From Romanomermis culicivorax (taxonomy: Eukaryota; Nematoda; Enoplea; Mermithida; Mermithidae): a stretch of 64,000 nucleotides of DNA. A program made the translations under genes and the position numbers. Below, piece by piece: positions 511-62,828 of this stretch. The notes beneath the pieces were generated by a model. The model ran no database searches and was not told the DNA's origin. It saw only the letters and a program-made list of their open reading frames with translations. Numbering within the stretch: position 1 is the first letter of the stretch; each line of letters opens with the position of its first letter. The stretch lies in NCBI GenBank assembly GCA_963922205.1, contig CAWUHX010000154.1:558001-622000 (forward strand), in the 5' to 3' direction.

Positions 511-2195
511 ATGGTTCATGCTTGGTTTATGAGCAATGATGTGGATGATGTTCATCTACCGAATAAGCCCATTAATGGCCAATACATAGATCTGGGTTAT
601 CTGAAAGAAATTGGAGTGACCTACGTTAAAGTAAGTAGAAAACCGTCGCCTTTGAAAATTTTTGGTGAGAGATAACGGCAGGAGACTGTAAAATTGCTTT
701 CAGTTCAAAGATTCCGAAAACTATCGCATAGAATTGAAAAAATTCTGCGACGAAAATGGCTTCAACTATACCGACGAATGTGCCGTGACGGAAAGAACGC
801 CAGAAGATAAAGTTATTTTTGGAATATTTTCATATCTGACTCTGTGCTGAACACTTACTTCTGTACCTGATTTTTACTTGTAAAATGTATGATAGCGATC
901 TGACTGATTGTACCAACATTCCGCCGGATCGTTGGCTCGAATTTAATCCTTGAATTAACTCCTGCTGCAGATTTTTCGCAACATTTCTGCCAAAGCTGAT
1001 TCTGATTACTACAGCCCGTTTTTTGTCAAAGCTTGACAATTAAGAGCTTAATCAGTACTGTTGTCAAAATCACTCACAGAAAGTACTGTAGAAACGAGTA
1101 TGCGCCAAAAAATTCCGGGCTACATATGACTCAGCGAAAAATGATAAAAATATCAATTAGCACTTGGTTTCCAGTTTTATTATTTGAGAGTATTTCAACA
1201 GAAAGTTAATGTTTCGTGAAATAAAAGTAAAAGTAGTATCAATGATTCCATTCGAATGTAACGTCTTACTATAGAAATATTTGACTTGCCAACATACACT
1301 ACATTTGTGCAATAGAGCATTATTTGATTGTTCTTGCTTCTGAAGTCCACTTACAGCGGCAACCAAAAAGGTGACTTAAATTCGGCAAACCGTTTGCACG
1401 AAGTAGAAATATCTTTATACTGTACCAAAAATGCAAAATTCTCTCAGAGAACAGGGGAAGCCAAAACCACAAAAATTACATCGTGTTTATGCACTTGATT
1501 TCAATGAAACTGTCTACACTTATCTACTCCAGAAATTAGCTCTTTGAGTATCGAGGAAAATGATTAGTTTTTGCTTGTTTGCTGTCCGTGAACGAGAAAA
1601 TTTTTCTTTGCACCACATTATAACTCGCTGGTTATTTTCACGACGAACTTTCTATCTTTGGTTCGCTCCATCTGCCATTTCAGAATGGATAAACTAACGA
1701 TAGTTAAAATTATACTCATCAATGTCGTACGTAAAGTCGACTCTGCATCGTCTTATTCATGATCACACATGATTAGTCACACTCATTGAATGCAACTTAT
1801 AATGCAACTAAAGCTACCTGAAACTTGTGCTTCATCGCAGATAAAAAAGTTCATTCAAGAACATATCCATTCGACCGATCAAGTTCGATACATTTCGGAC
1901 GGATCGGCTTTTTTCGACGTTCGCGATTTGCAAGATCGTTGGATTCGATTGGCCGTCGAAGCCGGCGATTTGATTGTCATTCCGGCAGGCATGTACCATC
2001 GGTCGGTAAACGACAAAAAAGTAAATCTGGCCATTTTCCTCCATTTTCGTCTATTAAATTTATTTTACTTTGTAGAATTATTTGATGACAATCAGAATTT
2101 TTCCGATTGAGCCGACTTACGACCAATTCAGTAGACCTGCAGAACACGTGATGGCCAGGAGCAAATATTTACAAATGATTAGTAACAAAGCGTAA
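511..2195 (+). CDS. ADI1: Acireductone dioxygenase, four exons, complete
   Basis: Spliced gene, exons 511-630, 704-811, 1841-2020 and 2076-2195, all joined in phase 0, giving 175 residues, close to the usual ~180 for animal acireductone dioxygenases. Seen: N-terminal MVHAWFMSN, cupin strand ISDGSAFFDVRD, DRWIRLAVEAGDLIVIPAGMYH, and a C-terminal RPAEHVMARSKYL block. Acceptors are TTTCAG, TCGCAG and TTGTAG; the donor after exon 2 (AAA/GTTATT) is weak. Family knowledge: the cytosolic/nuclear enzyme of the methionine salvage pathway oxidises acireductone to the keto-acid precursor of methionine, using Fe or Ni held by two His in HxH, a Glu four residues on, and a downstream His. Odd: here the motif reads HIHSTDQ, so the Glu is Gln; both HxH histidines and the later His are kept. 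The 1.03-kb second intron holds a MITE-like fragment. Confidence 0.93.
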
Positions 2196-14032: not shown

Positions 14033-14407
14033 ATTTTATCAATTTTATGGCGTTTATGTGCTCTATGTGGTGTGTACACTTTTTTAATGTTTATCGAAGC
14101 ATACTAATATTACGATATTGTATGTTCAATATTAATATATTACTTCAATTATTGACACTGAAAATTCTGATTTTTTCCGTACATGACAGTGCTGTTATAA
14201 TTTGATATCCTTGTTTGATTTTGAAGCATGTAATGCATGATCACATTGAATATATTGTATTTTTATTTGTGCTGCATTCAAATTAGCAGTGTCCAAAATT
14301 TGGGATACCCTACGGATACCCTACCTACCCTACGCACACAATTGAATCAGAATACAGTAAACCCTACCCTAATAGACGATCTAAGAACAGCAAACATTCG
14401 TAATAAC

Positions 14408-17400
14408 ATGGCAAATAATTTCTACGCGAAAAATACAGTATTCACGGGCGGCGTGACCCAACATTTTGGTGAATGGAACAAAAGATTAGAACAATTCATG
14501 GCACTCCAAGGCATGAAAGATACAGACATACAGTTAAAGTTGGCATGTTTAGAGATTCATTTAGGAGGAGCCGCGTTAGCAAAATTCAAAAGCTTAGCCA
14601 ACTCCGAAAACCCTCCCCACACATACGAGCAGTATAAAGTCGCATTACAGGCATTTTTCCCAAACAATAGAGATAATGAGCTACATCAACAATTCTTACG
14701 CGAGAGAAAACAAAAGCCATCAGAAACAGTAACTGAATTCTTATTTGATCTAGAACACCTCGCAACCCTCGCCTATCCTAACTTTAACACAGACGCAAGA
14801 GAAATGATCATAAAACCCCTCTTTGTAGAAGGCATGCAAAACGAAATCAGGGAAGCAATTAAGTATAGAAGGTTCCCAACTCTCAAAGAAATGTCAGACG
14901 AAGCAGCTTACATCGAACAGCAAATTCTTAGAAATGAGTTAAAATCTAACACCCTCCCCTTCATACCCCCAAAACCCGAACCCATCTTTTCCCTAACCAA
15001 AAATACAGACCAACAGGACCTTTTGCATCAGTTAGAACAACAAGTAAAAGATTTACAGTTGCAGATCAAACAAAAACCTCAACCCCCACAACAGAGTAGC
15101 TACAACAATTTCACTAACAATACTTTCAGCAGGAATAATGCTTACAGGAACAATACCACCCCTAGGCAACCCACATGCTTCCAGTGTGGACAACTTGGAC
15201 ACGTAGCTCGTAATTGTAAATCAGTAGGCACCCGGAAATCATGTGAAATTTGTTTTCATAATAATCACAGTACACGTGATTGTAAAAGCCGATGCATCCA
15301 CTGCTCCCAAACAGGACATAGATCTGATAACTGCCTTTCGAAACCCTACTCAAATTTTCAATGTTGTATATGCAAGCAGAGAGGTCATACAAGCAGGTAC
15401 TGTCCAAATCAACAGAGTTGTAATATTCAAAATTGCATTGAGTACAGGCAACCCCAACCCCTCATGGACATTGATGACCCCGCATTTTACTCAAAATTAC
15501 CCGCCATAACTAAGGGCCCTCAGACTACTTTAGGAACCATTATGCCCAGCACCCACCACCGTAGTGACAAATACGTCCTCGACCTGGACGTACCGGATTG
15601 GGGCGCCATGTCACCACCCCCCACGCCTGAAGCCGCAAAAATCGAAAAATCGCTGCCCACCATCCCCGTAGGCTACAAGATCCCCCGGAAGCAAGACACC
15701 ACGCCGCCCACCGCCCCCGAAACCCCATCGAAAGCAGGCCCTAACTTGTTGTCCCTTCTCCATGGCCTGACCCCCGAACCCTACCAATTCCGCCCCCGCC
15801 AAACATTGCTACAGACCCCCACAAGTAAGCAAGTCCAAACCCCATCCCATGACTCAACTTCTAAAGTTTTACAGACCGTTCAGATTGCAAACCAGCCACC
15901 CCCTCAGCCCAAAACCGAACAACACCAAAAGCCGCCACCCCAAACCGGCCAGAACGAAAATATACAGTACCCTGCTGCCTCCACTAAAACACTATATTGG
16001 CTGTTGTATTGTATATTTTTATGCATAATAATCCCCACATCGTGTAGTGCCCAATTTCAGATGTGTGGAACTTCATTGAGCAGTCACTCAGTCAGCATAC
16101 CAAAACTTGTATCATGCATGCCCCCCTCCACAGTAGACAAACCCGTACAGACATTCAGAAAAATCTATATCCCCTCCACCAAACCTCACATAACAGATGC
16201 ATACAAATGCAGTGTTCGCAAACGCAAAATTTGTACTAATACAGGATTTTTTGGCTCAAAAGGTATTGTCTTCGACCAAACCAAAATGCAAAATCTAACC
16301 CCACATGTTTGTAAGGCAATCATTATAGACAAAGAACACAACGGTCAAAAATTATATGAAACCCAACCAGGATTTTGGTCAACAAATAACTCCCTAAGCG
16401 TAGAATACACATGGTGTTGTACAGACCACTGTACCTCGGTCACTAACGTCATCATAGAAATAGGACAAATAGCATCTTGGAATGGAAAATCTATGACAGG
16501 TACATTAGGTGACCTGGGGTCATGCAAACCAACATCAGGTCATTGTGTCACAGCCGACGGATCCATTATCTGGAATGAAACAGCATTCAAAAACTTATGC
16601 CCCTTCGAATACAAAAATACACATCCCATCAAACTCACGCAAACCCACATGATAATAGAAGAGCTACAAGGTGCATTCTCCGTTAAAAATACACTCTTTT
16701 CGAACCCCAACTGCCCAGAAATCCAAGACAGCATTCTAACCGAACAAGGCATTATTGTACAATTAGACAAAAGCACCCCACATCGTAACGCATTTTTAAC
16801 CCCAAAAACCAACAAAACTCATACTACACTCTATGATTTTGATGATTTTGAACCCATTAACGCGAAACTAAATTATCTAGCAGACAAAATCCAGGAATTC
16901 GAAATTCAAAATTTCAAAAACATATGGAATGAATTATGCAGACAGGCACAGCGCCACCTTGATCTCGTATGGCAAATTTTGAGCCTTGATGCAACCCTCG
17001 GAGCACGTGCATTTCTACAGCGAACCGACATAATCGCAGAATTCACAGGAGAAGCCCTCACAGTCTGGCCTTGCAAGCAGGTAAACGCATCTAAAGTCTT
17101 TTACAACCATAAAATCAAACAAACATGCTACAAACTTTTGCCCATTCTGGTAGGAACCGAACTCATGTTTTCAAATCCAGGAGGCAACAATTTGACCCCT
17201 TTTTCACAAACCGTTGACTGCCATCACATGCATGTAGCCCTTTACAAACAGAACAATACATGGGTCAGTGACACAGGATCCCCGCATGTCACAAATTTAC
17301 CTTTAGAAATCGTCTGGAACCAAAATTTCTCCCTTTTCCATTTTAATACACCCGCCATTTTTCATGATCAACTCGCAACAATTTCGACAAACTTACTCTT

Positions 17401-18931
17401 TTTGAAACAATACATTTATAAAACTCACACACTCGAAAACGTTGTTAAAAAACTCGTCAATTACACTGCCCAAATGTCTCTTAACTCCGATACAGTTTAC
17501 AACATGATCTCAGGCACTGGCCAAGCACTTGGAAATACCTTCTCTGGCGCCGGTCAAGGCATAGAACATGTAATAACCGGTACCACCCAAAGTCTCACGG
17601 ACGGATTAAACAATTTACTCAAAGGACCCCTGCAAATCATTATTAATCTAGCCATTATTACTGTAGTTATTGCAGGCGTCTTTTATTCTTTTCTCATTCT
17701 TCGAAAATATTTCCCCTCTCCCAAGCATCATGACACAAATGAACATGCGTATGAAATACCATCACACAACAGACGTTTACACGAGACCATTCCCCCATCA
17801 TTCGGCCATGCCCTCTTAGAATTAGCTAATTGTCGTGGGGCACAAACACAGCAGAAATACGTCCTTGTCGATATTGATACCCCCCGAACCCCTGCAATCG
17901 AACTCATTAATCAAATTCATCAATCTGCATCAAACAAGCCACCCCAAAATGTACCTGAGAAGCATACCCCTCATATTCCAATCACACTTAACGGCAAATT
18001 AATCACAAAAGGTATGATCGACACTGGTGCAGTCTACTCCCTCATTGATTCACGCATCGCTCAAATTTTGCAGTTAGACATGAAACCCTGGCTAGTCCAA
18101 GCAAAAGCAGCAAATAATCTCCCAATTCACTTTGTAGGGACCACTTTTGTCACAGTGACAGCCCAAACAATCCAGGAAACAATCATGGTCCATGTCCAAA
18201 AAGATTGTACAGCAGATATCCTTCTAGGCAAAAACTTTCTCAGTCGATTTTCGGAATACACAATCAACAATCAAAAATCTCAGGTCAAATTTGGCAATGT
18301 CTTACTACCCTGTGACAGCCTCGAATATAGCCCCCTTTCGACCCATGGTGGAATATATCTAGATGAAAAATTAGAATTGCCACCCCGTACGGTAACCCAA
18401 TTTACTGTCCCCTTGCCCAAATCGTACCTACAAGTTAAACAGCTTGAATTTACTCCCAAACCCAAGCAGAATCCCAAAGTCCATTTCACAGCTTGTGTCT
18501 CTGAAAATCAAAACAATCGCATACGCATATCGGTCCTAAACACACAAGAAACAGCCCAAACTCTTTACCCTGGAACATGCATCGGTACAGTCTCCTGTTA
18601 CATTCCAAAACAAAATGCTCCCGCTAATGTAACCCCCTCTACGCAAAACCAGCCCAACCGTTTTGATACATTCACATGGTTAAAAGAAAATGTTAATTTA
18701 ACCTCCAGTGACCTCACAGAAACCGAGAAAATGCAACTCCTACGTGCCCTATCGAAGTATCCTACATTATATGCTAAATCCAAAATGGACGTAGGTAGAA
18801 CCACCCTTGTTTCACATACAATTGACACCAATGGCTCCAACCCGTACATAGACAACTTTATCGGACTTCCCCAAAAGAAAAGCAAATCATACAAGCAGAA
18901 GTTGAGCAACTCGCAGCAGCAGGTGTCATAA
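14408..18931 (+). CDS. Gag-envelope-like-protease polyprotein, continuous frame
   Basis: One frame is open from 14237 to 18931 (1,564 codons). I prefer the Met at 14408 (residue 58) because retrotransposon Gag homology begins there; the upstream Met region may be leader. Residue positions below count from 14237. Gag/capsid ~58-300; CCHC knuckles start at 314, 336, 353 and 377; Pro/Gln-rich linker ~395-580; hydrophobic signal/anchor 586-604; ectodomain ~607-1130; transmembrane 1134-1158 followed by R/K; tail; aspartic protease with active-site DTG at 1262-1264 and the ILLG core strand; then the start of the RT region. The frame leaves pol homology near 18850 because of an indel, so the last ~28 residues are out-of-frame. 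Usual Ty3/gypsy Gag-Pro lacks the membrane-bounded part. Confidence 0.9.
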   Translation: MANNFYAKNTVFTGGVTQHFGEWNKRLEQFMALQGMKDTDIQLKLACLEIHLGGAALAKFKSLANSENPPHTYEQYKVALQAFFPNNRDNELHQQFLRERKQKPSETVTEFLFDLEHLATLAYPNFNTDAREMIIKPLFVEGMQNEIREAIKYRRFPTLKEMSDEAAYIEQQILRNELKSNTLPFIPPKPEPIFSLTKNTDQQDLLHQLEQQVKDLQLQIKQKPQPPQQSSYNNFTNNTFSRNNAYRNNTTPRQPTCFQCGQLGHVARNCKSVGTRKSCEICFHNNHSTRDCKSRCIHCSQTGHRSDNCLSKPYSNFQCCICKQRGHTSRYCPNQQSCNIQNCIEYRQPQPLMDIDDPAFYSKLPAITKGPQTTLGTIMPSTHHRSDKYVLDLDVPDWGAMSPPPTPEAAKIEKSLPTIPVGYKIPRKQDTTPPTAPETPSKAGPNLLSLLHGLTPEPYQFRPRQTLLQTPTSKQVQTPSHDSTSKVLQTVQIANQPPPQPKTEQHQKPPPQTGQNENIQYPAASTKTLYWLLYCIFLCIIIPTSCSAQFQMCGTSLSSHSVSIPKLVSCMPPSTVDKPVQTFRKIYIPSTKPHITDAYKCSVRKRKICTNTGFFGSKGIVFDQTKMQNLTPHVCKAIIIDKEHNGQKLYETQPGFWSTNNSLSVEYTWCCTDHCTSVTNVIIEIGQIASWNGKSMTGTLGDLGSCKPTSGHCVTADGSIIWNETAFKNLCPFEYKNTHPIKLTQTHMIIEELQGAFSVKNTLFSNPNCPEIQDSILTEQGIIVQLDKSTPHRNAFLTPKTNKTHTTLYDFDDFEPINAKLNYLADKIQEFEIQNFKNIWNELCRQAQRHLDLVWQILSLDATLGARAFLQRTDIIAEFTGEALTVWPCKQVNASKVFYNHKIKQTCYKLLPILVGTELMFSNPGGNNLTPFSQTVDCHHMHVALYKQNNTWVSDTGSPHVTNLPLEIVWNQNFSLFHFNTPAIFHDQLATISTNLLFLKQYIYKTHTLENVVKKLVNYTAQMSLNSDTVYNMISGTGQALGNTFSGAGQGIEHVITGTTQSLTDGLNNLLKGPLQIIINLAIITVVIAGVFYSFLILRKYFPSPKHHDTNEHAYEIPSHNRRLHETIPPSFGHALLELANCRGAQTQQKYVLVDIDTPRTPAIELINQIHQSASNKPPQNVPEKHTPHIPITLNGKLITKGMIDTGAVYSLIDSRIAQILQLDMKPWLVQAKAANNLPIHFVGTTFVTVTAQTIQETIMVHVQKDCTADILLGKNFLSRFSEYTINNQKSQVKFGNVLLPCDSLEYSPLSTHGGIYLDEKLELPPRTVTQFTVPLPKSYLQVKQLEFTPKPKQNPKVHFTACVSENQNNRIRISVLNTQETAQTLYPGTCIGTVSCYIPKQNAPANVTPSTQNQPNRFDTFTWLKENVNLTSSDLTETEKMQLLRALSKYPTLYAKSKMDVGRTTLVSHTIDTNGSNPYIDNFIGLPQKKSKSYKQKLSNSQQQVS
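15992..17722 (+). other. Envelope-like glycoprotein region inside the polyprotein
   Basis: What is seen: a hydrophobic stretch (residues 586-604) ending in a signal-peptidase-like SCSA/Q; about 530 following residues with 16 cysteines, including a WCC and a CxxxxxHC-type pair; roughly nine N-glycosylation sequons; a Gly/Ser/Thr-rich membrane-proximal segment; a 25-residue hydrophobic span; then a basic RKYF stop-transfer. These are the traits of a type I viral surface glycoprotein with ectodomain in the lumen. Inference: Gag would stay cytosolic, the ectodomain enter the ER, and protease-pol return to the cytosol. I could not assign a fusion-protein class; no furin-type site is obvious. A cellular origin cannot be excluded. 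Confidence 0.75.
17940..18330 (+). other. Retroviral-type aspartic protease domain
   Basis: Residues ~1240-1360 of the polyprotein. The catalytic loop is DTGA preceded by a hydrophobic strand (GMI), and a second signature, ILLGKNFL, follows about 70 residues later, as in Ty3/gypsy proteases. It would cleave the polyprotein. Position immediately after the envelope-like membrane anchor is unusual. Confidence 0.88.
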
Positions 18932-20225
18932 GTCAGAGCAATTCTCCATGGTGTACCAACACAGTTTTATTCCCCAAAAAAGATGGAGGCCATCGGTTAT
19001 GCATTGATTTTAGAGGCCTCAATAAAGTAACCAAAAAAATACATACCCCCTGCCCCACATAGACGAAATTCTAGACACTCTACGTGGCATGAAATATTTC
19101 ACCTCTCTTGACCAATCCAATGCATATTATTCTATTCCCATTGCTCCAGCAGACAGAGAAAAAACGACCTTTAATTGCTCAGCCGGCCAGTATCAATTCA
19201 ACTACCTCCCCTTCGGTCTCACCAACGCTCCAGCCACATTCCAAAGGTTAATGGATGTTATTCTTTCGGGTTTGCAATGGAACACATGCCTTGTATATCT
19301 CGACGATGTTTTGGTATTCGCAGATTCCCATGCCCAAATGCTGGAACGTTTAGACACTATTCTTGCCGGATTCTCACAAGCAGGCCTTAAGCTAAACATA
19401 CAAAAATGCAAATTCTGCCAGCCCCAAGTCCAATACTTAGGCCACGTCATTTCTCAACAAGGCATTTCACCAGATCCCCATAAGGTACAAGCCATCTATG
19501 ATATACCCACACCCAAAAGCTCAAAAGAAGTTAAGTCATTCCTTGGCCTACCCTCGTATTATCGCAGATTCATCCCAAATTGCTCTCAAGTTTCTAGCCC
19601 ACTCACATCGCTACTCAAAAAGAATTCGAAATTTTTCTGGGGCCCTGAACAGCAAAACGCATTCACCAAGCTAAAAGAATTACTCATTCATGCCCCAATA
19701 CTGCAGCATCCTGATTTCACAAAACCATTTATACTGCAAACTGACACCTCAAAACTCGGAATCGGCGCCATTCTTAGTCAGCTCGATAGTAAAGGTCAGG
19801 ATCGCCCCATTGCTTTTGGGAGCCGCACACTCAAACCCGCAGAACGCAACTACCCGATAACTGAGTTGGAAACCCTTGCAGTAGTTGAGTTTGTCAAGTA
19901 TTTCCGCCCATACCTTTTCCAGCAACATGTTATTGTACACACTGACCATACAGCAGTTCAGGCAGTCTTACAAAAGGAAAACCCGTCCCCTCCCATTGCC
20001 CGTTGGGGATTAGCCCTCTCCCGTATTCAACTCAACATTCGACCTAAGAAAGGCACTGCTAACCGCAACGCAGATGCAGTTTCTAGATTCCCCTCACAGA
20101 CAGTGAAGCAATCCTTTGACATTGAGCAACTAGAAACCCGCCCTGAAATATCAACCATCAATTCCGTCCTGGAAGCTGAAGCGACTGAACAAGAAGAGCA
20201 ACAGAAAAATTTTGCCGAACTTTAA
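18860..20225 (+). pseudogene. Reverse transcriptase-RNase H region, broken
   Basis: RT homology begins in one frame before 18850, moves to a second frame (an LFPKKDGG-type motif near 18970 and an IDFRGLN-type motif near 19003) that ends at TAG 19060-19062, then continues in a third frame that is open as 19089-20225. That last frame contains the YLDD polymerase box (19296-19307) and the RNase H motifs (TDTS, TELE, HTDH), ending at TAA 20223-20225. The second shift lies next to an A7 and a C5 run, so an assembly error is possible there. The enzyme would copy element RNA into DNA; this copy cannot produce it intact. Confidence 0.9.
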
Positions 20226-21483
20226 CGCACTGATCCAACTGTCAAAAGCATTTTAGCAAAAATCGCCCAAAAACACCCCCTTACCCTGATCAAATTCGCA
20301 GTGCATCAAAACATCCTCTTCCGTATAGTCGACAAACAAGCAAAACTATACATTCCCAAGTCACAAGTCCAGCATCTCATCGCCTCACATCATGACAGCA
20401 AATTCACAGGCCATTTTGACAGGCCATTTTGCCGCAAGGAAAACATTACACTTGCTCAGACAAAAATATTTTTGGCCCCAAATGAGCCGTGATATCAAAT
20501 GGTACTGCAAAACTTGCCACCCATGCCAGACACAGAAAGCCCTCCGGCACAAAGTGCATGCAAATCTGGTACCAATTCAGCTGACTGGCCCATTTGATAG
20601 AGTCGGTGTTGATTGCATGGGACCGTTACCCCTCACTGAAGACGGCAAACGATTCATTGTCGTTTTCATCGATTATTTCACAAAGTATGTAGAGGCATTC
20701 CCGACCCCTGACATCACTGCAGCCACTATTGCCAAGTTATTCGTAACCAAAATTGTTTGCCGTCATGGGTCCCCAAAAATCATACATTGTGATCATGGCT
20801 CCGATTTTGTATCAGATCTCTTTTCACAAATCACTAGCTTATGCAATACTCAGAAAATTCATACCACCCCATACCATCCCATTGCTAATGGGGAAGTTGA
20901 GCGTTGCAACCAAACTTTAGCCACCCGTATCCCCATGTACATCAATTCAAATCACACTGATTGGGACACTTATCTGCCCTATGCCGTTTTTTCGATCAAC
21001 ATTCATAAAAATGATAGCACTTCGTATCCCCCATTTGAATTACTCCATGGTAGGCAAGCTAATCTGCCATCAGATGCAGCCTTAAATTTTTTCCCCACGT
21101 CCTACATGGTTGATTTAGACGATTACGCCCTTCGTGTAAAATCACATTTTACAGAAGCACTCTCAACCGTGCAGAAAAGCTTACAAAAAGCCCAAGACCA
21201 CTATACCCGTCAGTATAACAAGCATGCTCAGAACATACATTACAAGGCAGGCGATCTTATTCTTTACAAAAATCATTCATGTGAACAAGGGTTGACTCCC
21301 AAATTCCTCCCTCGCCAAAACGGGCCCTATACAGTTCAACATTTCATGTACCCCAATGTTACACTTAAACACCCCCATAAGAATATTACATTTACGGTAC
21401 ATGTCAATGAGACAACCCCTTTCTACCCTCGGAAAGCACCTATCGAAACTGCCCCCACCCCTCCTCAACCCCGAAAGCCTTGA
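20226..21483 (+). pseudogene. Integrase region, broken at its N-terminal zinc domain
   Basis: The reading frame of the RNase H region continues past the TAA as the start of integrase (a LIASHHD-type His pair near 20380). It is then shifted by a 13-bp tandem duplication of GGCCATTTTGACA (20409-20434). The downstream frame (to the stop at 21481-21483) holds the zinc-domain cysteines (CKTCHPC), the catalytic D, D and E (VDCMGP, HCDHGSDF, NGEVERC) and a C-terminal GPY-type segment (NGPYTV). Integrase would join element ends to the target DNA. Catalytic residues are kept, but the open frame is interrupted upstream. Confidence 0.88.
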
Positions 21484-21500
21484 ACGAGGACGTTCAACTC

Positions 21501-21514
21501 CGGAAGGAGGGAAA
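21501..21514 (+). promoter_or_regulatory. Polypurine tract
   Basis: CGGAAGGAGGGAAA directly abuts the TGTAACG start of the LTR. This is the expected primer site for plus-strand DNA synthesis. Confidence 0.85.
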
Positions 21515-22413
21515 TGTAACGTACCTGCTAAAGCAGTACTGTAAATATGTAGCATACTGTATGTGATAGACATTTATTAGATATTATTTCATTTTCACAT
21601 TTTTATCCTCTCAAGGGTGTCTGCGATTCACACCCAATATTCCTATAAAATTATGTGAAGTACATTATTTTGATCCGTTCACACCCTGGTAGCCCAATTA
21701 AGAGGCCCCAATTAATTTGCACAAACGGCAGCTGTTCCCCTAGAACCTACACTAAACTACACATTCCACAGCTACCGTAATCCCCCGTTAAAATCGTAAA
21801 CAACACCTGCACACAGTAAAATATGTAGAAGCCCCGCCAGACAGTAGTCTCAAGTGTAACGGTAGTCGCGGCCCCCACAAAACATGTGTATACAGAGAAA
21901 CCGATACAGGAAGCATGCACAGAAGCACAGAGGTGTGGCCAAGCCCACCGTAGAAAGCAAGCGAAGCACGAAAAGCATACAGTACCAGGAAAGCATTAGA
22001 AAGGCGTAACTAAGAAAGCATAAAAAGCATAGCAGGAAGCGACGATTGGGGGAAGAAGATGGACAGAAGCTCGACCTCCCGCGGTGCCCAGGGAGTGGCC
22101 AAAAACGTCGTATAAAAGAAGAAGCAAAGCGTGATTTAGTTAGTTGTTAGATTGTTGTAATCGTTTCATTTTTGATCCGCGGCCGTTCACTTTGGTTGCA
22201 AGCAACCGTCTTCGAAAGCAATTAAACCGTGTCGTATATTTTATTTGCAAGCAAACACGCCATCCATTTTTGTTATTCGACGTTCAAGCGACCGTCGATC
22301 ATTCGTTGTATTATTGTATTATCGTCTCGCCACGCCCCGTCCCGTTATAGCCTTTCCCGCCGTAGCGATCGTTGGTTAAAAGTAAAGTACCTCACACAAA
22401 TCTGGTCGTTACA
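21515..22413 (+). repeat. 3' LTR of the Ty3/gypsy-type element
   Basis: 899 bp, starting TGTAACGTACC and ending GGTCGTTACA, so the inverted ends are TGTAACG / CGTTACA. A TATAAAA box at 22111-22117 suggests U3 covers roughly the first 600 bp and RNA starts near 22140. ATTAAA near 22220 may serve as polyadenylation signal. No second LTR copy was seen in the window. Confidence 0.85.
22111..22117 (+). promoter_or_regulatory. TATA box in the LTR
   Basis: TATAAAA in the distal third of the LTR, at the place expected for the end of U3. It would normally drive the full-length transcript from a 5' LTR; here it would transcribe flanking DNA. Confidence 0.6.
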
Positions 22414-30665: not shown

Positions 30666-31505
30666 TCATGCAAAAACTAAATCAAAAACATTTTGATTTC
30701 CAGTAGGTTCTACAATTACTTGTGTCACGCCATTTTGATACATAGCGTAAACTAATGGGAATTTGTTGGGATCTGTATCAAGCCAGTTTATATTCGGTTC
30801 ATTAATGTTACCAAAAATGAAAGTAGGGGAATCTGATGAGCAAATTTTCTCAAACAAATCGTAAAGTGTTTCTTTTAAAGCTGCTGTTAAGGAGGGAGGT
30901 GAATAAACACAACAAAAAAGTGCAGTAGATGCATTGAAGTTAACATTGAGACAAATTAAATCGAAATTTTCTAGATTTTCGGATAGTTCAATTTGAGTAA
31001 ATGGTAAATGCTTTTTAATGAAACAAGCGACTCCACCACCTCTCTCCCCATTAAGCCTGTCATCGCGAACAACGGTATAATTAGTATTATTATGAAGTAA
31101 GGCGTTAGTGACTGAGATATTCAACCAGGTTTCTGTGGCTAAAATTATATCATATTCGTCTGTATCGAGTAAGAAAGAAAATTCATTAAGCTTGTTACAT
31201 AAACTGCGGGAATTAAAATAAAAGAACTTTACCGGGGGCTTAATGTCTCTGGCGGGAACATTGGGAGAATTTTTCGGTTTATAGTTATAATTAAAATTTT
31301 GGGTGAAACTACTGACCTTAACACAATCGTTTTTATAATATATGTAAAGGTTACTTTCACCCTTGGCTAATCTTCCTTGTAATTCAGCCTGGAGCTCCCT
31401 GGATCTTTTTCTCTGGAGGTACGATAAATCGGGGCGCGCTCGTAAATTTTTGTCGATCGAGTTTCGGCAATTTTTGTTGATTAATTTGATGAAGGCGGCT
31501 TTCAA
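30666..31505 (-). CDS. LINE apurinic-type endonuclease domain
   Basis: 279-codon open frame on the minus strand. From residue ~95 it reads as an endonuclease/exonuclease/phosphatase-fold domain: FYFNSRSLCNK, then a TETWL motif (catalytic Glu), a GGGVACF loop, CVYSPP, and a late NxxNxxW segment. The N-terminal ~90 residues are basic. In an intact LINE this enzyme nicks the target DNA to prime reverse transcription. The frame ends at a stop near 30668; the final DHAS-type motif is still visible just downstream (about 30615-30630), so this is a truncated remnant. Confidence 0.82.
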   Translation of the reverse strand: MKAAFIKLINKNCRNSIDKNLRARPDLSYLQRKRSRELQAELQGRLAKGESNLYIYYKNDCVKVSSFTQNFNYNYKPKNSPNVPARDIKPPVKFFYFNSRSLCNKLNEFSFLLDTDEYDIILATETWLNISVTNALLHNNTNYTVVRDDRLNGERGGGVACFIKKHLPFTQIELSENLENFDLICLNVNFNASTALFCCVYSPPSLTAALKETLYDLFEKICSSDSPTFIFGNINEPNINWLDTDPNKFPLVYAMYQNGVTQVIVEPTGNQNVFDLVFA

Positions 31506-34841: not shown

Positions 34842-35078
34842 TCATTTTTCCTGATTTAAGTAAAAATACACAGATTCCTTATCATAACAAATAAAATCAT
34901 ATACTAATGCACCGTCAAGAAAATTTTTGGCATCGAATTTTATGAAGACTGGCATTTCGACCGACAAAGTTGACAATCGATTATGCAACTTCGTGTAAAC
35001 AAAGCCAAATGTTGAAAAATTATGATCTGATGACGCAGTTGACACCAAAATGGAAAACACCGGTTTATAACATGACAA
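34842..35078 (-). pseudogene. hAT transposase C-terminal (hATC) domain, remnant
   Basis: 78-codon frame with the hATC signature: SILVSTASSDHNFSTFGFVY region, then NRLSTLSVE and VFIKFDAK. In hAT transposases this dimerisation domain closes the protein. The catalytic Asp/Asp/Glu portions are not present. The conserved Glu of the usual SSER/E-like motif appears as SSDH here, unlike SSERIF in the 52638-52826 copy. Confidence 0.72.
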
Positions 35079-35157
35079 AAAAATTTTGCTTACTTGCCAT
35101 TATTAGTCTTAAAAAACGTATTCTTAAGGCATTTTTTTGTAACGAAGGTCACGTTTT

Positions 35158-36288
35158 GCTGATCAATCCAAGGGATTTTATATATATTGATTTTTGTAAA
35201 GCTTTTGATACTGTACCTCATGACATTCTCATTCAGAAGTTGATGAAGATCGGTATCCCCAGAATCTGTTTTGATTGGATTTATTCTTTCTTGAACAACC
35301 GTACCCAAAGAGTTAAAGTTAAGTGTGCCGTCTCAAAGTCATTGCCAGTAACTAGTGGAGTGCCCCAGGGTAGTGTCCTGGCACTTAGTCTATTTTTAAT
35401 CTATATAAATGATTTGTGTAAACTGAATCTTAATAGTGGATTGGTTCTTTTTGCAGATGATCTCAAAATTTTTAACCAATCAGTCAACTCAGTTATTTTA
35501 CAATCTGACCTAAACAACATTGATCTTTGGTCCAAAGAAAAAAAAGATTGAGTATAGCATTCAATAAATATAATGTTCTGCATCTTGGTAAAAACAATCG
35601 GTGTACAAATTACTATCTTGATGACAGTAATATACCAAGTACAATTACAGATGTAGGTGTTATAATTACTGGTACATTATCTAATGCTGCTCACTGTATC
35701 CATGTTTTCCGGAAAAGCTCTTTCACTGCAAAACTTCGTGGTTTCTCCAGTAGAAATAAAAATGTACTTACAAAGGCTTTCATTACTTATGTTAGACCTA
35801 TATTAGAATATGCCACAGTAGTTTGGAATCCTAATCTCTAGCAAGATATCAAAAGAATTGAGAAAGTTCAGCGGAGATTCACTAAGAGAATACTAGGTTA
35901 TGATACTACATTATCTTATGATGAACGTTTGAACTACCTGAGTTTAGAGCTATTAGACCTACGGCAGCTTCGTTTTGATCTTACTATGGTTTATAATATT
36001 GTCTATTTGTGCCAATTGATAACTTTTTCTCTATTGTTCATAATTCTAACCGTGCCAATAACTCGTTAAAACTGGTGTATTTTAAATATCATCATGATTT
36101 GTTGAAATATGAATTCTGTAGTCGGTTCTTTCTGATAGACTTAAAAAAGTAAATCTGATACCTTTCATAGAGGTGTAACTTAATTCACTAGTTTCTTTAG
36201 CTGTTACGCCTTTTACGTATATGTATTCCTTATATTTACTGCGTATTATTTTCGACCTAATAAATTATTATCATTATTATTATTATTA
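35158..36288 (+). pseudogene. 5'-truncated LINE with reverse transcriptase
   Basis: Frame from about 35172: IDFCKAFDTVPHDIL, TSGVPQGSVLALSLF and the catalytic FADD (35452-35463), ending at TGA 35549. A second frame (35550-35838) carries KYNVLHLG and AFITYVRPILEYATVVWNP, then TAG, and LSYDERLNYL in the following sequence. It ends in an ATT-repeat tail (36262-36290). It differs from the LINE at 27806-31925 in tail and sequence. It replaced about 400 bp of the host hAT element. Confidence 0.85.
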
Positions 36289-44012: not shown

Positions 44013-47000
44013 AAATGTCTCAGAATCACTATCCATCTATGATCAGTCGGAATGATCAACCGCAGATAGGCTTTCACGACTTGGATTCATCGTCGACCGT
44101 CATTCTGTATGGGGCGGGCGACGCACTTTTGCCCATTTTCTCACCATCTCTCGATCAGTCAACGATTAGTCATAACGACTACGATTATCCTTCAGGCTTG
44201 AATAACATTAATACGGCAAATGAACACGTGTTCAGTAATCATTCGAGAAATTTGTCACATGATGATACAATCGCTCTCGATCAAACTATAAATATAATGT
44301 CGAATGATCCCGAAAGTTCTCCTTTGGTAACAAATGAAATGGTATCAGATCTCATCAACGGTGATATTAAAAAGGAAATAAGTGAGTTCATTTAGTTCCC
44401 ATTTGATAACCAGTTTTGGCTTTCTGAAATCTAGATATTCATTCTTCTGCTCATTAGCTGCATTCTTCATTGATTTTCAGCATCGAGCAAACGTGTTTTC
44501 AAATGCAAGGACTGCGCTCGTGTTTTTATCCGCCGCCCATCATTGATAGTGAGCTCAGTTTTTGCTTACTCAAAAACTAATTCTTCGATCATGATTTTCT
44601 GATTCTCGGTCATGATTTTCTGGCCTGATTTTTCAGTTATGTTTTTAGCTTTGGCCTTTTAGATTCATCAGAGGATACACAATTCCAAATCGCCATATCA
44701 ATGTATGCTATGCGGCCGCCTATTCCGACAAAAATCTAACGCTAATCGGCACATAGAAACGCATAAGGTAAGTTTTGAGTACGGTTTGATATGGAACAAG
44801 TTTTCTACCAATAATTCTGGGATTGCATAGTATTAAATTCGTTTACGTACACTACATGTACAGTTAAAGAGTTAAACATTTAAGCCAAAACTTGACAAAG
44901 GTAAAAATGACTTGAATCTTGCAGAAATTTTGAAAAGAGTTGTGTTGGTTTCCTGGGTTAGATATTTGTCTTCACCACTCATGACTTTTTGCGTATTCAA
45001 GTAGTAGCGGATTTCGACGATCTCTTAATTTGTGTGCTCTTCGTAGGTATTTCCAAAATACTGTCAACAAAAAGCTAGCCTCGACGGTCAGTCGCAAAAG
45101 CTTATTATTAGCGAATGCAAAAGCAAAAAACAAATGGTAATTTGCAAATATTAACACAAATCTCGCATCCAAAAAATAGTCTAAACTTCATATTGATCGA
45201 AGATTTTCTTATAGCACGAATACGACTCGTACATGGTAGCATATCAGTGTAGTTATTGTGAAAATCAATTTGACTGCGCCCGTTGCCTCAAATCGCACGC
45301 CATAACGTCTCATCGTGACATAAGGGTCAGTAAGCTGATTTGTTACGGTTAATTTGCGTTGAGAAATATGACAATAAAAATTTGTTCTTTTCAGACTGTG
45401 AATTCTTCATTTTGAAGGTTGAGAAAAAACAAGTCAATACTAATCGATCGAAAACTTACACTTTTCTGCGATTGGGCGGGTCTGAATTCGACCTCAATTT
45501 TATTTGTTATTAGATTATTTTGCCTCACTTTTTTCGATCAACTTTTCATGTTCTTTTGCAATAGGTATTTGCTTGTCCGGCCGAAATATGCCAAATCGAA
45601 AGCGCCGATTTATCAGAAATCGTAAAACATGTGAGAGACATGCACAAATCAGACTATATCTACAAATGTTATCTATGCGACGAAAGTTTTCGAAGTTTAA
45701 CTTCAATCGAAGCTCATTTTTTGTCCCATAGATTGGAGAAGCGGCTCAAAGTCACCCGAAGCAGAATAAAGTATATATTATGTGCTTTTCTAACTTTTGT
45801 TTATCATACATCTTAAATTATTCTTTGAGAAAGAATGAACAGATTTCATGTCCCGTATGCCCGAATAAATATTCAACGCTTTACGAATGGAAAAGACACT
45901 ATTTTGCCTCACATTGGTTTTCGAGAAAGAAATGGGAGTGTGTGGAATGTTCAAAAAAGTTTTCTTACAAGATAACGTATAAAGTGAGTATCTTAGTATA
46001 GCGACAAATTTTCTTAGCTTTAACGCCTCCTAAATTCTTCGTTTTTATTTCGCTGCCTAAATCCCTCCTCGCTTTTTATGTTTTTCTACTACATTTGTTT
46101 TTCTGCTTTTCGTTTCCGGTTCACGTTACTCTGAGTCATTTTTTCCTGACAATTTATAGTTAAAATTTTAATTGACTGTTGATTAAAAATATTTTTTTAT
46201 TAACTTAAAATACATGTTTTCTTTCCTTTTCATGAACTTGAGAATCAGTTGCGTGTTTTGTTCCGTAATTTTCAGACTTTTGTCTTTTTCATTTTATAAT
46301 ATTCTCAATAGGTTAAAAGTTTTGCAGCTACACATGGAACGCCACAATCCAGTAAACTTGGATCCCGTTATTTGCGAAAAGTGCTCAAAAATTTTTTCAC
46401 GATTGGACGCCATGAAACGGCATTTACTCAGTCGGCATAATAATACAAACGACAGTATGTCACTTACTGTTGCCTACAAGTGCAGCTTCCATGGATGTAC
46501 GAAAATTTACAAAAGAAAGGATAGCCTACTTGATCATATGAAATGCCACTGTCAGACCAATAACGAACATTCGAATGCTTTTATGTGCAATGAGTGCGGT
46601 AAGTTAATTAAAATACACCAGCCTAAACCGGTTGGCTTCCGACGAGAATTACGGCGACATCTACAAAATCATGAAGCGTCATACTTGATTCGGATTTGAA
46701 AAATGCAAAATTAGTTTCCATTGATGATTAGAAACCGAAATTCTGATACCAGATTATTTTTATTTACTATTACGAGTAGTTTAGGTAGAATTTTTTCCTC
46801 GCAGAAAATTGAAAAACTGCAGTAGGAACCTATTTTTACTTTTTGCTGGTGAACAAAATACTTTTCTGTCTGTCCACAGTAAAAAAGGTTTCCAATTTTT
46901 CCCTGTTGAACTTACCTTCATCGATTAGGCTGAACTTCAGTTTAGGGTCAGCAGATTTGCATTACCTGTTTTTTTAAGTAAAATGCTTCTAAATCAAAAA

Positions 47001-56659: not shown

Positions 56660-59600
56660 ATGGCGATGGCTGTGGTTCAAAACACCATCGGAAGACTGGA
56701 AGAATTCAAGAGCAAAGTCGGTCGTTCACTCGGTACTCCAATGCGACTCCGCGATTTGATTCGACAAGTGAGACTTTTCTATCATCTGCGATCCACTGCT
56801 TTTAGGACCGGTACGTTAGAGGCCGCCTTCACTTTTGAGCCATTATACCAATAGGAGTGTTGGGAGCCTGAAAGTTAGAAATGTAATGTTGAAGAATGAG
56901 AGGGAACGTCTTCAAAGCAAAATAGTAAAGCAATCGCAATAAGTTCTAGAATGAAACAAAATCTCAGCATCCAAATGTATTCAAAAAACTTTTTTGAAAA
57001 GCGACGATCAATCCAATAAATTTTCTTCTTGTAAATATTCGCATAGACGAGTCGGTCCGCACCAGACAATAACAGGAGCGTTTGGGTGTATCAGTCCTAT
57101 CAGGGGTTTGAAAAAACATTTACTACCTCGGAAAATTCTTAAAAGTTTTTCGAGAAAACTTGATTTAAGGTAATCGCGTTGGCGTGGGGTGACTTGAGCC
57201 AATTTTTCAAAAAACCAAATGGCTTTTTTGCTCAAAAATTCATTACTGAGGGTATAAAAAGACGAAGGTTGGCATGTACATCAGAAAATGGTTGACATCT
57301 CAGGAGTACAAGTTTCAGTTGACCAACTTTCACCTAAACTCATATTTTTTGAAATTTCTGGGATGGCTCAAGTCACCCCACTCGAGGGGTGCTATTTTTT
57401 ATATAAGACGTGCAAATGCGGATTTAAGGGGGCGGGGGGGCGGCCCCCCCCTCCGAAAATTTTGAAATACGATTTTTTTCTGTATACCTATAGGCAAATT
57501 TGAAAAATTTTTGAAAATTTTTTGAATTTTTTTTTGGAAAATTACTTAATTTTGAGCACCGCCCCCCCCCCCCTGAAAAAAATTTCTGGATCCGCCACCG
57601 AAGACGTGCACCATGGCTTGCTTAAACCCTCAATCGGGGTGACTTAATTACCTACATTGTTAAAAAATATTTTTATCATATCTAAGCCATCATAGATAGT
57701 GGCTCGCAAACTTTTTTGATTGACTTGAAAACTTTCTAAGATTAAGGATTTTGCAATCTTTGATTTTTGATTTTGCAGCCATGTGGTAGCCTTAGGGACC
57801 CCCATACTTAAGGTCGGAAAAATACTGAAAAATGTCAATTTTTAACAAAAAATGGTCAAAAACGTCAATTTTCTCGGCGCTCCGCGCCATGAATACACTT
57901 TTTTCGGTCTTTTAAAAAAAAATTACTATTTTTCGGACTTTTTTCGTGAAAAAATCAATTTTTTTCCCTCAGAGACCGCTCCATCAAAATCTTGGGAATC
58001 ACTGACCCCGGCCCAAAAAAGTGGCCTCCCAGACCTCGGGGCCCCGTTACATGTATGGTCGTAAAAGTACGGACATGGTCGCACACTCTAAAATTGATAA
58101 ATTTACTTACTTTAACGTTTAATCGTTCTTCTGATTAATTTTTTAAAATTTCATTTGCATCGCGTCAGTACTAAACTTTTGCAAGTGGATTTCATGAGTT
58201 TCGGAGGAAAATTATGAAAAGTCTGCCAAGAATACCGATAAATTTTCATTTCAAGGCTTCTAAAATGTCGGAAAATACATTTTCAGCTAATTTTTCTGCA
58301 ACCAATGTTATCGATTGTAAAAAACGGTTTCAAAAAATTCAGCGTGGCAAGCATTCCGTATTTTAGTCGGAGATCATTAATGCCGGCGCGTAGCGCCTGA
58401 AAATTTTCTAAATTTGATGTTCTAGCATGCAAGGAAATGAATCTTTTTTCAACATTTATTTGATACAAAAAATTAGGCATGCACTCGATACATACCTGGA
58501 CAAACCCTATCGGTTCATCTGGTACCAGTTAGTCGAAAAAGATGGTTCCCGAATCGTTTTAATGGTTTCCATGCCAAACAAGGATAGGGAACCAAATGCA
58601 TAGTGCATTTATCTTGCAGAAAATGGACAGAATGCAATCAAATTGATTTTCAAGCTTAATCCAGAGTCTGCAGATTTTTAGGGCATACCAGCATATCCAT
58701 CTAGGACCTAAAAAGTCAGAGTGAAAAATTTTGTCTTGAAAATCTGGAAATTTCTGAGAACTTGAACAAGTGCATTGTTGTGCATTTTAGAAAGTTGAAA
58801 TGTCAAAATTTTTCGGTGCTTAGCACCGGTGTTCACTCATCAGATTCGGCTCAAGCGCAACACTTAGAGGTCTAGCACTGTAACTCAATTAACATTTAAT
58901 TCAATTCTTCTGTTGATTTTATTGATATATTTGCTCGCTTTGTGAGTGTTATGAATCATGATAGTTATAGGCAGATTAAAATAGAAAAAATCACTGTGAG
59001 GAAAGCAGTGTGCTTTGTGCCTTTTACCATTTAACGAATGTATGGCTAATCACTTTTGCTCAAGAAAAACTTGAAAATTCTGGAAAAATTCCCAAAGTCT
59101 GGGAATTTTACTTTGGGAAACCAGGGCCAACTCATTTGGTATCGAAGTCCGGAGTTGCATACAGTTTAACCATACATGTGACAGAGTTTAACCATACATG
59201 TGACACATATTGAAAAGCAAATACACGCCTACATATGCTCATCTACTTGAACATGCAGTCATATTTCCACCAAGTCATGCATAAATGCTTCACAGGATTC
59301 CATTGGTGGTCAGTGTTCATGATGGTTAATTTCCTGATCGATTGCTTCCCTTTCCTGAATGTTTGATTGATTCTTTTTTTGGTTGGTTGCTTGATTCTTT
59401 AGTTGATCAATTGCTTGGGTGAAATTGATTTCTTGATTAGTTGATTCATTGACACCATGATTTGATTGGTAATTTGCTAACTGACTGTTAATTTCCCAGT
59501 TGTTTGGTTTTGATTGGTTATCAGATTAATATTAGATGGTTGGCTTCCTGATTCACCAGGTAATTGTTTGGTTGATTCCCTGGTGGTTGTTTGGTTCATT

Positions 59601-62600
59601 GATTCCCTGGTTGGTTGGTTGATTCCCCGATTGGTTGAGTTGATTCCCTGACTGATATAATGGTTGGATGGTTCATGAATTCTTTAGTTCGTCGATTGTC
59701 TGATTGGTTGGTTGGGTCATCAGTTCCCCGGTTAGTTGTTTCTTGATTGGTTGATCAGTTCATTGATTGACTTACTGACCAATTCATCCACGGACTCCCT
59801 GAATGATTGGTTGACTAATTGATTCACTGATCTTTTGATTGATTCTCTGACTGATTGGTTGGTTGATTCCCTGGTTGGTTGATGATTCCCCGATTGATTG
59901 GTTGGTTGGTTTATTGATTCCTTGGTTGGTCAGTTGTTTCCCTGATTGGCTGGCTGGTTGATTGATTCACTGGCTGACTGGTTGATTTCCTAATTGGTTG
60001 GTTGGTTGGTTCACTGATTTCCGGGTTATTTGAATGATTCTCTGATTGGTTTCTTGATTGTTTGGTTGTTTGGTTGGCTAATCAGTTCCCTGGTTGGTTG
60101 TCTTCTTGATTGTTTGATTGGTTCATTGATTCCCTGGTTGGTTGAATGATTCCCTGATTGGTCGGTTGGTCAGATCAGACTATTATTATCATTAAAAAAG
60201 CATAGTGGGATGAAAGAATTCACCTGAGCAGATGAACATTGCGAAAGTGAACGAAATTGTTGATTGATTTTGTTAGGAAATCAATTTGCCTGTGAAATCT
60301 GCATAAATTTTGCTGTGTTGTGCGAATTTATGGAAAACGACTGATTTCTAGGTAATTGTTAGGTTTTTTAGGTGGTTAACAGCATTGTAGCAGGCACTGG
60401 GCGAATGGGAGGACATGTTTGGTAGCTGTAGTGCACTGTGACGGTCAGTGTTTTTTTTGCACTCGGTCCATTTGTACTGGTACAAACGACTTCTCAAAAA
60501 CCGTTTGTACTCCAAAACTTTCGAAAATTCGCTGAAATTTGCTGAAAAACATTCATTGTAATAAAATGCAACAAATATGATGTGAAATATGAATATGTTG
60601 ACGAGACACATGAGAAGACTACGAATGCACAACATAAAACAGTTGACCATGAGGCACAGAACATGCACTAGTAAAATACTCCACAAAAAGTTTTTATTAT
60701 TATGCCATGGCTGCTAGTTTGCCGTTATCGATGCGAACGCGTAACAAACAAGTCCATTGTGATAGAAATTTTTTTGCGCTAAAATTCCGTTTGTATTAGT
60801 ACAAACGAAGCCAAAATTTTCGTTTGTACTCTGGACCGTTTCGTTTGTAAAGTACAAAAAAAACTCTGGTGACAATCCCATAGCACATGGCGTTGATAAA
60901 AAACTCACTCTACTACGCTGCCAAAATCAGCGATTTACCCCTATCAAAATCGCGGACCTTGTTTATGTATATGGTCCAGACTGCCCTATGGGAAGAGGTA
61001 TGAGGGGTTATTACCCTTATCCGAAGTCTTGAGAATTGATCACTGGGTGCCTAGTTTTGGGAGACATAGAATGTTTAGTGAACATTAGCTACATTATCTG
61101 CGACAGATTTTCTACTTTACCCCTACCTGAAAATCTGACCTTGGGGACTCTGATGTAGTCCGTACCGCGCATAAATCACAAAACCCTGCTCCGAAAACAG
61201 TTTAAATCAAGTAAAATACATACCAAATGATACCAGTATTGTATAGATTCACAAGAAAATCATCAAATATAAGTAATTGTTCAACTTGGCAACATCATTC
61301 TGGAATAACGAGAAAAATTATTTTACGATAATCAATCATATGGGTAAACTCAAAATTCTAAGTTATTCTGAGTAATTTTAGGAGCGTAAAAATAAATAAG
61401 ACTGAGAATTGAAAGTATGGTGAAGCTGCATACTGCAATGCAACTGTGAGGCAAACTTGAGAAAGTAGACTTGATGGCTCCGACAGCATACAAGCAATAC
61501 CTTGGCCATGCTGGGTGGAGGGAGTACCGGGCCTCATAGTGGTAGAAGGTCCCATATGAGTTGGCATTTTTTGGAAATCCGCTTATCTTGGATATTTTTC
61601 AACACTCAGCTGATTTGAGGCATGTTTGGCTGAGGGAGCCGAAATTTGGATGGTGGGGTGGAATTCCCCCATTACTCCCTGTTATATTTATATGCAATCA
61701 AGGATGTGTTTGGGAGAAGGGGACGGCTGCCCCTTTGGGACTTTTCATATGTCGATTTCCAGTCTATCCTTGAGAAAAATCTCAAAGTTTTCCGGCGCTT
61801 CGCTCCGTTGAATGAGTATAAACAGTCATTGTTCCTTATCAAGTGTGGCCATTAGCATATCTACTTCGAGTTACTACTAGGAAAAGTGTTACCATCCATT
61901 AGTTCCAATTAATTTTCATTGTTATGAAAATTCATTTTCCAGCCTTTTACAATGTAAAAACCTAAAAATTTTCTGGCGCTGGGCCGTGGAAAAAAATTTT
62001 TTTGCTCGGTCCGCCCCCTTAAAAAATTCCTGGCTAGGGCCAGAAATTGTTCCTTTGTCGAATATGCTCATAAAAACACTTAAAATATTTATACACCTTT
62101 CAAAATCAATTGTTCCTGTTCTGTGCGGAAAATTGCCAAAAAAAATTTCGCGCAGCCAAAAAACTTCCCACTGTGCAGTGAGAAGCCCATTGTCATGTGT
62201 TAAAAGGTAGTACCTGCTAGGTGGATGCTATTAAGATAGATGTACCCGAGCGCGAGCTAGGTTTTACCATTTAAATATATACAAAGTAGCATCACCTAGA
62301 CGTTTAGCATCGCAACTAGTTGCCACTGATACAAAAGGATACATTTTCTAGACTGAATTAAGCACAAGCTAGATTTTAACATACAGCCCCTGCTTCCACG
62401 TACGCTACGCTATGTAATTTATATATTACTGATCAGTGATCACAAATAAAGTCCCAATTTCGGTTTTGAAGGTTCGGGCTGCACGAACGGCCGCTGAGGA
62501 GAGACAAGTCGTTCAAAAAGAATGCGCCAATATAAGAGAAATGTTTCGAGAAGAAGACAACGTGTGGAGATGTAGAAGCTTCGCAAAATTGCTGTATATC

Positions 62601-62821: not shown

Positions 62822-62828
62822 GTACATA

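Follow-up and report, generated by a model that had tools for sequence, protein, structure and literature searches.

Retroviruses carry env after pol, and errantivirus-type env is also located downstream of pol. Here we describe a Ty3/gypsy-type retroelement in which env lies inside the Gag-Pol frame, found in a 64,000-nucleotide stretch of the genome of the mermithid nematode Romanomermis culicivorax (GenBank assembly GCA_963922205.1, contig CAWUHX010000154.1, positions 558,001 to 622,000 of the forward strand; hereafter the window). Insect errantivirus-type elements (Metaviridae) likewise combine a Ty3/gypsy backbone with env, but theirs is an F-type env derived from spliced RNA (PMC12992720). 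Dingle, a Ty3/gypsy element of the annelid Dimorphilus gyrociliatus, resembles the present element in its glycoprotein B (gB)-like env, which follows the integrase in Dingle (PMC7854359) whereas here it separates nucleocapsid from protease within a single frame. Atlas virus, a BEL/Pao element of hookworm, is also a nematode element with env fused to gag and pol in one frame of 2828 aa, differing in its Gag-Pol-Env order, class II phlebovirus-like fusogen and BEL/Pao reverse transcriptase (RT) (PMC9094657), as opposed to the Gag-Env-Pol order, class III fusogen and Ty3/gypsy-like RT found here. Anakin of mosquitoes has similarly captured a glycoprotein of chuvirus type (Chuviridae), in this case on a BEL/Pao backbone and with no internal env described in the account cited, which places the envelope-like protein of Roo, Tas and Cer-7 downstream of the polyprotein (PMC7642597). 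Cer1, a Gypsy/Ty3 element of Caenorhabditis elegans, shares the absence of a stop between gag and pol and differs in having an extra open reading frame (ORF) after pol (PMC10309623). Troyka was considered and set aside, as the 3-bp duplications and CG...CG ends given in the source cited (PMC12440569) do not fit the present element. No report of a gag-env-pol order was recognised in a literature search in which the gypsy-env survey of Chary and Hayashi 2025 (eLife 108449) was represented only by papers citing it.

An original prediction, made from the window sequence, had proposed an envelope-like glycoprotein module between Gag zinc knuckles and protease within one frame of 1,564 codons. The ORF list does contain this frame as a single ORF, in which Gag, four Cys-Cys-His-Cys (CCHC) knuckles, a hydrophobic span, an ectodomain, a second span and an aspartic protease follow in order. 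However, 1,564 codons falls short of the natural length, because the window copy lacks the 5' long terminal repeat (LTR), the leader and the first Gag residues and its pol is interrupted. Since element similarity begins only inside the frame (by-eye comparison with another genomic copy, L013), the first ~30 residues are flanking DNA, and a chance hydrophobic stretch at residues 1–19 falls within this part. The 5'-truncated and decayed state of the copy also accounts for the location of RT-RNase H and integrase in other frames, while ten other copies read at the Gag start have a longer Gag N-terminus with a 5' LTR upstream. A motif scan places the knuckles at residues 314, 336, 353 and 376, the spans occupy residues 580–607 and 1126–1159 and the protease carries DTGA at residue 1262; a separate DTGS at residue 1012 belongs to the ectodomain rather than to the protease. 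The ectodomain, anticipated at ~530 residues with 16 Cys and about nine sequons, comprises 519 residues (~607–1125) with 16 Cys. If Pro is barred at +3 as well, it holds seven sequons; two NLTP sites spotted by eye bring the number to nine. Pfam matches in the ORF include zf-CCHC (PF00098, 7.6e-6) and gag-asp protease (PF13975, 2.8e-8), with Gag (PF03732, 4e-5) borderline at 24.2 bits against a cut-off of 24.1.

The envelope-like nature of the module is borne out by profile and model comparisons. Window Env matches the Monjiviricetes_fusion profile (PF24664) with an E-value of 2.4e-19 and 69.2 bits against a cut-off of 27, and scores 17.3 bits with the gB profile PF00606, under its cut-off of 43. 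A phmmer search of PDB with the single window Env gave no match; the profile A2 search retrieves gB chains, the best being 5cxf_A (E 1.5e-4). The fold check called for by the prediction gave an AlphaFold model that matches herpesvirus gB and displays a class III fold. The profile and the modelled structure together identify the ectodomain as a class III (gB/mononegavirus-like) fusion glycoprotein. Invariant cysteines are kept in an alignment with Env of relatives 31–45% identical, in which candidate fusion loops were picked out by eye only.

Whether other copies lack the segment, a point on which the prediction was said to depend, was investigated in the host genome (359 Mb, 595 contigs). Scored matches numbered 73 for Env (the window plus 72 others at 95–97% identity), 116 for Gag and 109 for RT, which merge into at least 208 distinct copies, the count being a minimum since scoring was confined to the best candidates. 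In copies with both parts listed, gag-env spacing is 1545–1554 nt (26 pairs), env-RT spacing is 3135–3139 nt (48 of 49 pairs, the remaining one bridging neighbouring copies) and gag-RT spacing is 4668–4689 nt, env-containing in 34 of 34 pairs, compared with ~2.9 kb expected for a copy minus env only. Spacing is in frame in 25/26 gag-env, 46/48 within-copy env-RT and 29/34 gag-RT pairs. Among 20 further plus-strand copies picked by Gag and absent from the Env list, env is in place in 19; the other, L086, has RNase H and integrase at the env place, having lost the protease and most of RT along with env in a large internal deletion. Stop-free frames of at least 2400 codons surround 46 of 73 Env, 68 of 109 RT and 37 of 116 Gag matches (raw counts 46, 69 and 38, from which an RT row and a Gag row with an internal TGA have been subtracted). 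In the other copies these long frames mostly measure 2,484–2,520 codons from stop to stop, integrase included. Frame length is equal for Gag, Env and RT in all ten plus-strand copies taken from the three lists, and of 20 copies picked by RT, 19 have an RT frame that continues through integrase and ends at the same point, a stop coming earlier in the twentieth. Placement of Env is not a product of chance, given the 72 further scored genome places and the same order in deposited polyproteins just 32–40% identical in Env.

In ten long-frame copies the LTRs are ~900 bp, start with TG, end with CA and are 97.8–99.9% identical within pairs, and 4-bp target duplications were seen by eye in the flanks of nine, the tenth having none. 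A primer-binding-like TGGTGACCGTACC lies five or six bases after the 5' LTR and GGAAGGAGGGAAA before the 3' LTR of the ten copies, these labels being our own. The element is thus high-copy, young, mobile and recently active. It shows the Ty3/gypsy traits of a protease-RT-RNase H-integrase Pol order, an upstream Gag with CCHC and LTRs with TG...CA ends and target duplications in the 4–6 bp range, and lacks the errantivirus-type trait of env downstream of pol. Many of the closest named RT matches among the best 120 of 3915 are called K02A2.6-like and one 17.6-like; these point to Ty3/gypsy, the RT tree itself containing neither an all-family reference set nor a BEL/Pao reference. The element is Ty3/gypsy-type by its parts, and in the sources cited we know of no other with this order and probable topology.

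Selection on Env was estimated from several sets of copies. pN/pS (nonsynonymous to synonymous polymorphism) is 0.08 for env in 27 Env-picked copies and 0.01 for 20 RT-picked RT pieces, estimates biased toward good copies, and 20 copies were therefore picked by Gag. In 19 of these env pN/pS is 0.165, a value which rises to 0.41 when L086, having no Env at that place, is included. Variable sites in the 19 copies are distributed over codon positions 1/2/3 as 31/14/95 when shared by at least two copies and as 73/44/91 when singletons, the pattern expected of an env constrained by purifying selection in replicating lineages and decaying after insertion.

The same arrangement is conserved in other deposited sequences. 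A search returning only proteins of 0.55–1.75 x 1564 aa yielded five (P0004–P0008) with internal Env, 34–40% identical over 93–95% of Env, and an RT search, represented by the best 120 of 3915 matches, added P0033 and P0061. The seven polyproteins are 32–40% identical in Env and six have a protease downstream. P0005 (2597 aa) and P0008 (2685 aa) hold knuckles, span, fusogen, span, protease, RT, RNase H and integrase in one protein, with a weak Gag Pfam match in the former and none in the latter; P0061 repeats this pattern with the protease by motif only, and P0006 has knuckle, spans, fusogen and protease up to the contig end. Both Env junctions are open in frame in the five visible cases (window, P0005, P0006, P0008 and P0061), P0007 showing the upstream junction only. 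Because the RT search gave its best 120 matches, the control set comprised 128 proteins (127 found plus the window), a part of the relatives. CCHC and protease motifs occur together in 31, with two spans between them in P0005, P0006, P0008, P0031, P0061 and the window, for which the control script mistook the DTGS within Env for the protease motif, and none in the other 25. Three proteins from the RT search (P0031, P0032 and P0055) have no Env by BLAST. P0032 and P0055 begin too late for Env to be judged, P0032 having a hydrophobic span before the protease, and P0031 lacks the ectodomain, while the stretch from knuckles to protease still contains two moderately hydrophobic spans (residues 509–588). 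This absence is likely a secondary loss, and P0031 may show membrane threading outliving Env. The closest named Env match is from Romanomermis culicivorax (53% over 48% of the query), and two scans for relatives in viral contigs found none. Sources of the Env-bearing relatives include metagenomes; one further Env relative, P0002, is filed in a gammaproteobacterial metagenome bin and by homology more likely represents a eukaryotic contaminant contig.

Phylogenetic comparison bears on the proposal that this is a distinct retroelement lineage. Six-row Env and RT trees both split {window, P0004, P0033} from {P0005, P0008, P0061}, with bootstrap/SH-aLRT (Shimodaira–Hasegawa-like approximate likelihood ratio test) support of 100/100 in RT. 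P0005 and P0008 are joined in both trees (93/93 Env, 75/77 RT), and the order within {window, P0004, P0033} differs between them with modest support. A 121-row RT tree recovers a six-row clade containing the window with SH-aLRT 100; being a quick tree with many open forks, it leaves a single env-bearing clade undecided, at two changes and with P0008 apart, and places the env-less P0067 and P0118 near P0061. P0031 groups with the window and P0055 (68/80). Holding nine rows together is not rejected by the approximately unbiased (AU) test (p 0.52, log-likelihood 0.84 higher), which is no proof of a clade. One Env capture followed by common descent is the simplest history, and the Env and RT trees are compatible with it. 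The trees and the AU test support a distinct lineage without proving it.

Topology can be judged from charges flanking the spans. Lys plus Arg are more numerous before than after the first span in 6/7 sequences and more numerous after than before the second in 9/10, P0031 being the exception in both. The bias at the second span, where a LLKGP-Q motif common to most relatives lies upstream and positive charges lie downstream, fits a cytosolic Pol side. The predicted arrangement, Gag and Pol cytosolic with only the ectodomain lumenal, is thus supported, though not proven. A signal peptidase site is likely after Ala606 (C-S-A/Q by eye, the slash marking the cut).

The prediction had left three routes of Env expression: one polyprotein, splicing or internal initiation. 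As Pol follows Env in one frame, its synthesis without another start calls for read-through of Env or in-frame RNA excision. A polyprotein threaded twice through the membrane is favoured because of this order, the absence of a donor in the window element, the lack of Met in the ~300 residues ahead of the first span in P0006 and P0007 and the charge bias. We consider it likely that this is a Ty3/gypsy-type Gag-Env-Pro-RT-RH-IN element (protease, RNase H and integrase being Pro, RH and IN) with an internal class III fusogen and a membrane-threaded polyprotein. Translation of full-length RNA would yield a single polyprotein of some 2,400 residues, with Gag synthesised in the cytosol and the first span acting as an internal signal sequence at the endoplasmic reticulum, probably cleaved by signal peptidase on the lumenal side. 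The fusogen would fold and be glycosylated in the lumen, and the second span would lead the chain back out, leaving protease, RT, RNase H and integrase in the cytosol. There the element-encoded protease would then cut Gag free upstream and Pol downstream. Env and Pol would thus be brought to the particle under assembly through a covalent link, with no need of a spliced env RNA, and the fusogen would presumably serve particle entry. The flavivirus polyprotein proceeds in a similar manner from capsid through an internal signal to a lumenal envelope and back to the cytosol for its enzymes; the comparison concerns topology only, as the proteins are unrelated. We are inclined, with somewhat less assurance, to regard the element as representing a separate old env-bearing lineage, defined by a membrane-threaded Gag-Env-Pro-Pol with covalent Env delivery, no need of a spliced env RNA and Pol carried into the particle on the cytosolic side of Env, a strategy closer to that of flaviviruses than to that of retroviruses.

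Production of Env from spliced or spliced-leader RNA, the open frame reflecting genomic RNA layout only, or excision of env as an in-frame intron for Gag-Pol, appears doubtful. Insect errantivirus-type env typically comes from spliced subgenomic RNA in the source cited (PMC12992720), and the window has one YTTTCAG at 15123 in addition to the weak leader signals described below for L013. However, a spliced env RNA alone does not need both Env junctions open, as they are in the five visible cases, and env-excised copies number 0 among the 34 gag-RT pairs. A consensus scan of window positions 14318–21514 found no GTRAGT donor, which is weak evidence because just 1.4 are expected by chance, and acceptor motifs at chance level. 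Internal initiation is disfavoured, since two of six sequences inspected, P0006 and P0007, are devoid of Met for ~300 residues before the first span, which excludes an AUG shortly ahead of it as the Env start in these two; the nearest upstream Met lies 39 residues away in P0005 and 127 in the window. That the glycoprotein no longer serves entry and instead tethers Gag-Pol to membranes, for assembly or for budding inside the cell, is very improbable: P0031, with two spans and no ectodomain, speaks for it, but is a single contig with a span charge pattern unlike the others, and Env is under purifying selection across copies with invariant cysteines among its relatives. Chance hydrophobic stretches are rejected by conservation and fold, and an assembly join or late insertion by the 208 copies and the Env inside seven relatives' deposited proteins.

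Several observations weigh against the favoured explanation. Particle assembly does not usually proceed from an equimolar Gag:Env:Pol product. A Met precedes the first span by 4 residues in P0008 and by 11 in P0061, so that internal starts are possible there. The splice scan was by consensus only, in the leaderless window copy only, and the L013 leader region holds GTAAGA and TTTTCAG by eye, so that a measure of splicing is conceivable. The P0007 frame ends 79 residues past the second span with no protease on a contig of 18.8 kb, and one frame is therefore not required in every member. The length limits of the long-protein search favour Env inside polyproteins; the Env-sized search gave only three shorter proteins (P0001–P0003, 338–407 aa), none a complete separate Env. 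A stop interrupts env in 7 of the 19 Gag-picked copies, several with frame-breaking indels, as expected of decaying copies. The AlphaFold model has a mean pLDDT (predicted local distance difference test) of 67 and a pTM (predicted template modelling score) of 0.48, with an unreliable stem (~440–557 of the model), and the split between the two trios of sequences reaches only 67/80 in Env.

As a separate observation, the GTAAGA in the L013 leader and the TTTTCAG in early Gag (~2080–2520) could delimit a small intron shifting the start to a MANN methionine.

Table 1. Features of the element copy in the window (window coordinates).
Feature	Position	Strand	Basis or remark
Gag-CCHC-Env-protease open frame	14237..18931	+	1564 aa; frame of other copies longer on both sides
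Start of element similarity	~14326	+	By eye against L013
Gag capsid region, Retrotrans_gag PF03732	14555..14776	+	Borderline Pfam score
Four CCHC zinc knuckles (nucleocapsid)	15176..15403	+	Motif and Pfam
First hydrophobic span, putative internal signal	15989..16045	+	Hydrophobicity, flanking charges
Env ectodomain, predicted class III fusion glycoprotein, 16 Cys	16055..17611	+	Profile, model
PF24664 Monjiviricetes_fusion match	16808..17344	+	Pfam
Second span, predicted transmembrane	17636..17692	+	Hydrophobicity; positive charges after
Aspartic protease, gag-asp_proteas PF13975, DTGA residue 1262	17978..18247	+	Pfam, motif
Reverse transcriptase (part) and RNase H	19089..20225	+	Separate frame in decayed window copy
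Integrase, H2C2 and core domains	20392..21483	+	Separate frame; GPY-type C-terminal motif by eye
Polypurine tract adjoining 3' LTR	21502..21514	+	Label our own
3' LTR, TGTAACG...CGTTACA, 899 bp	21515..22413	+	LTR comparison

Elsewhere in the window, an acireductone dioxygenase-like exon (PF03079, 1.9e-22) at 1790–2110 (+) indicates a host gene beside the element, and 62436–62849 (+) matches the AP-1 complex gamma subunit (PF01602, 3.2e-21; PDB AP-1 gamma, 4.9e-41), in keeping with a eukaryotic host. Fragments of non-LTR elements of LINE (long interspersed nuclear element) type lie at 30669–31505 (-), endonuclease-like with PF03372 below cut-off, and at 34970–35548 (+), with reverse transcriptase PF00078 at 1.8e-17. 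A C2H2 zinc finger stretch (PF00096) is located at 46214–46696 (+), and 59160–60165, where AT skew is strong, holds dense, degenerate tandem repeats of the TTGATTGG type. Rfam and tRNA scans of the window gave no match.

An env inside Gag-Pol, common to deeply diverged relatives, departs from the rule that env follows pol. It would offer an alternative to splicing for the co-delivery of capsid, fusogen and enzymes, one that is testable, and it adds to the env-bearing elements a Ty3/gypsy-type lineage with a fusogen of mononegavirus/chuvirus-type class III. The env-less relative may show a route back to intracellular life.
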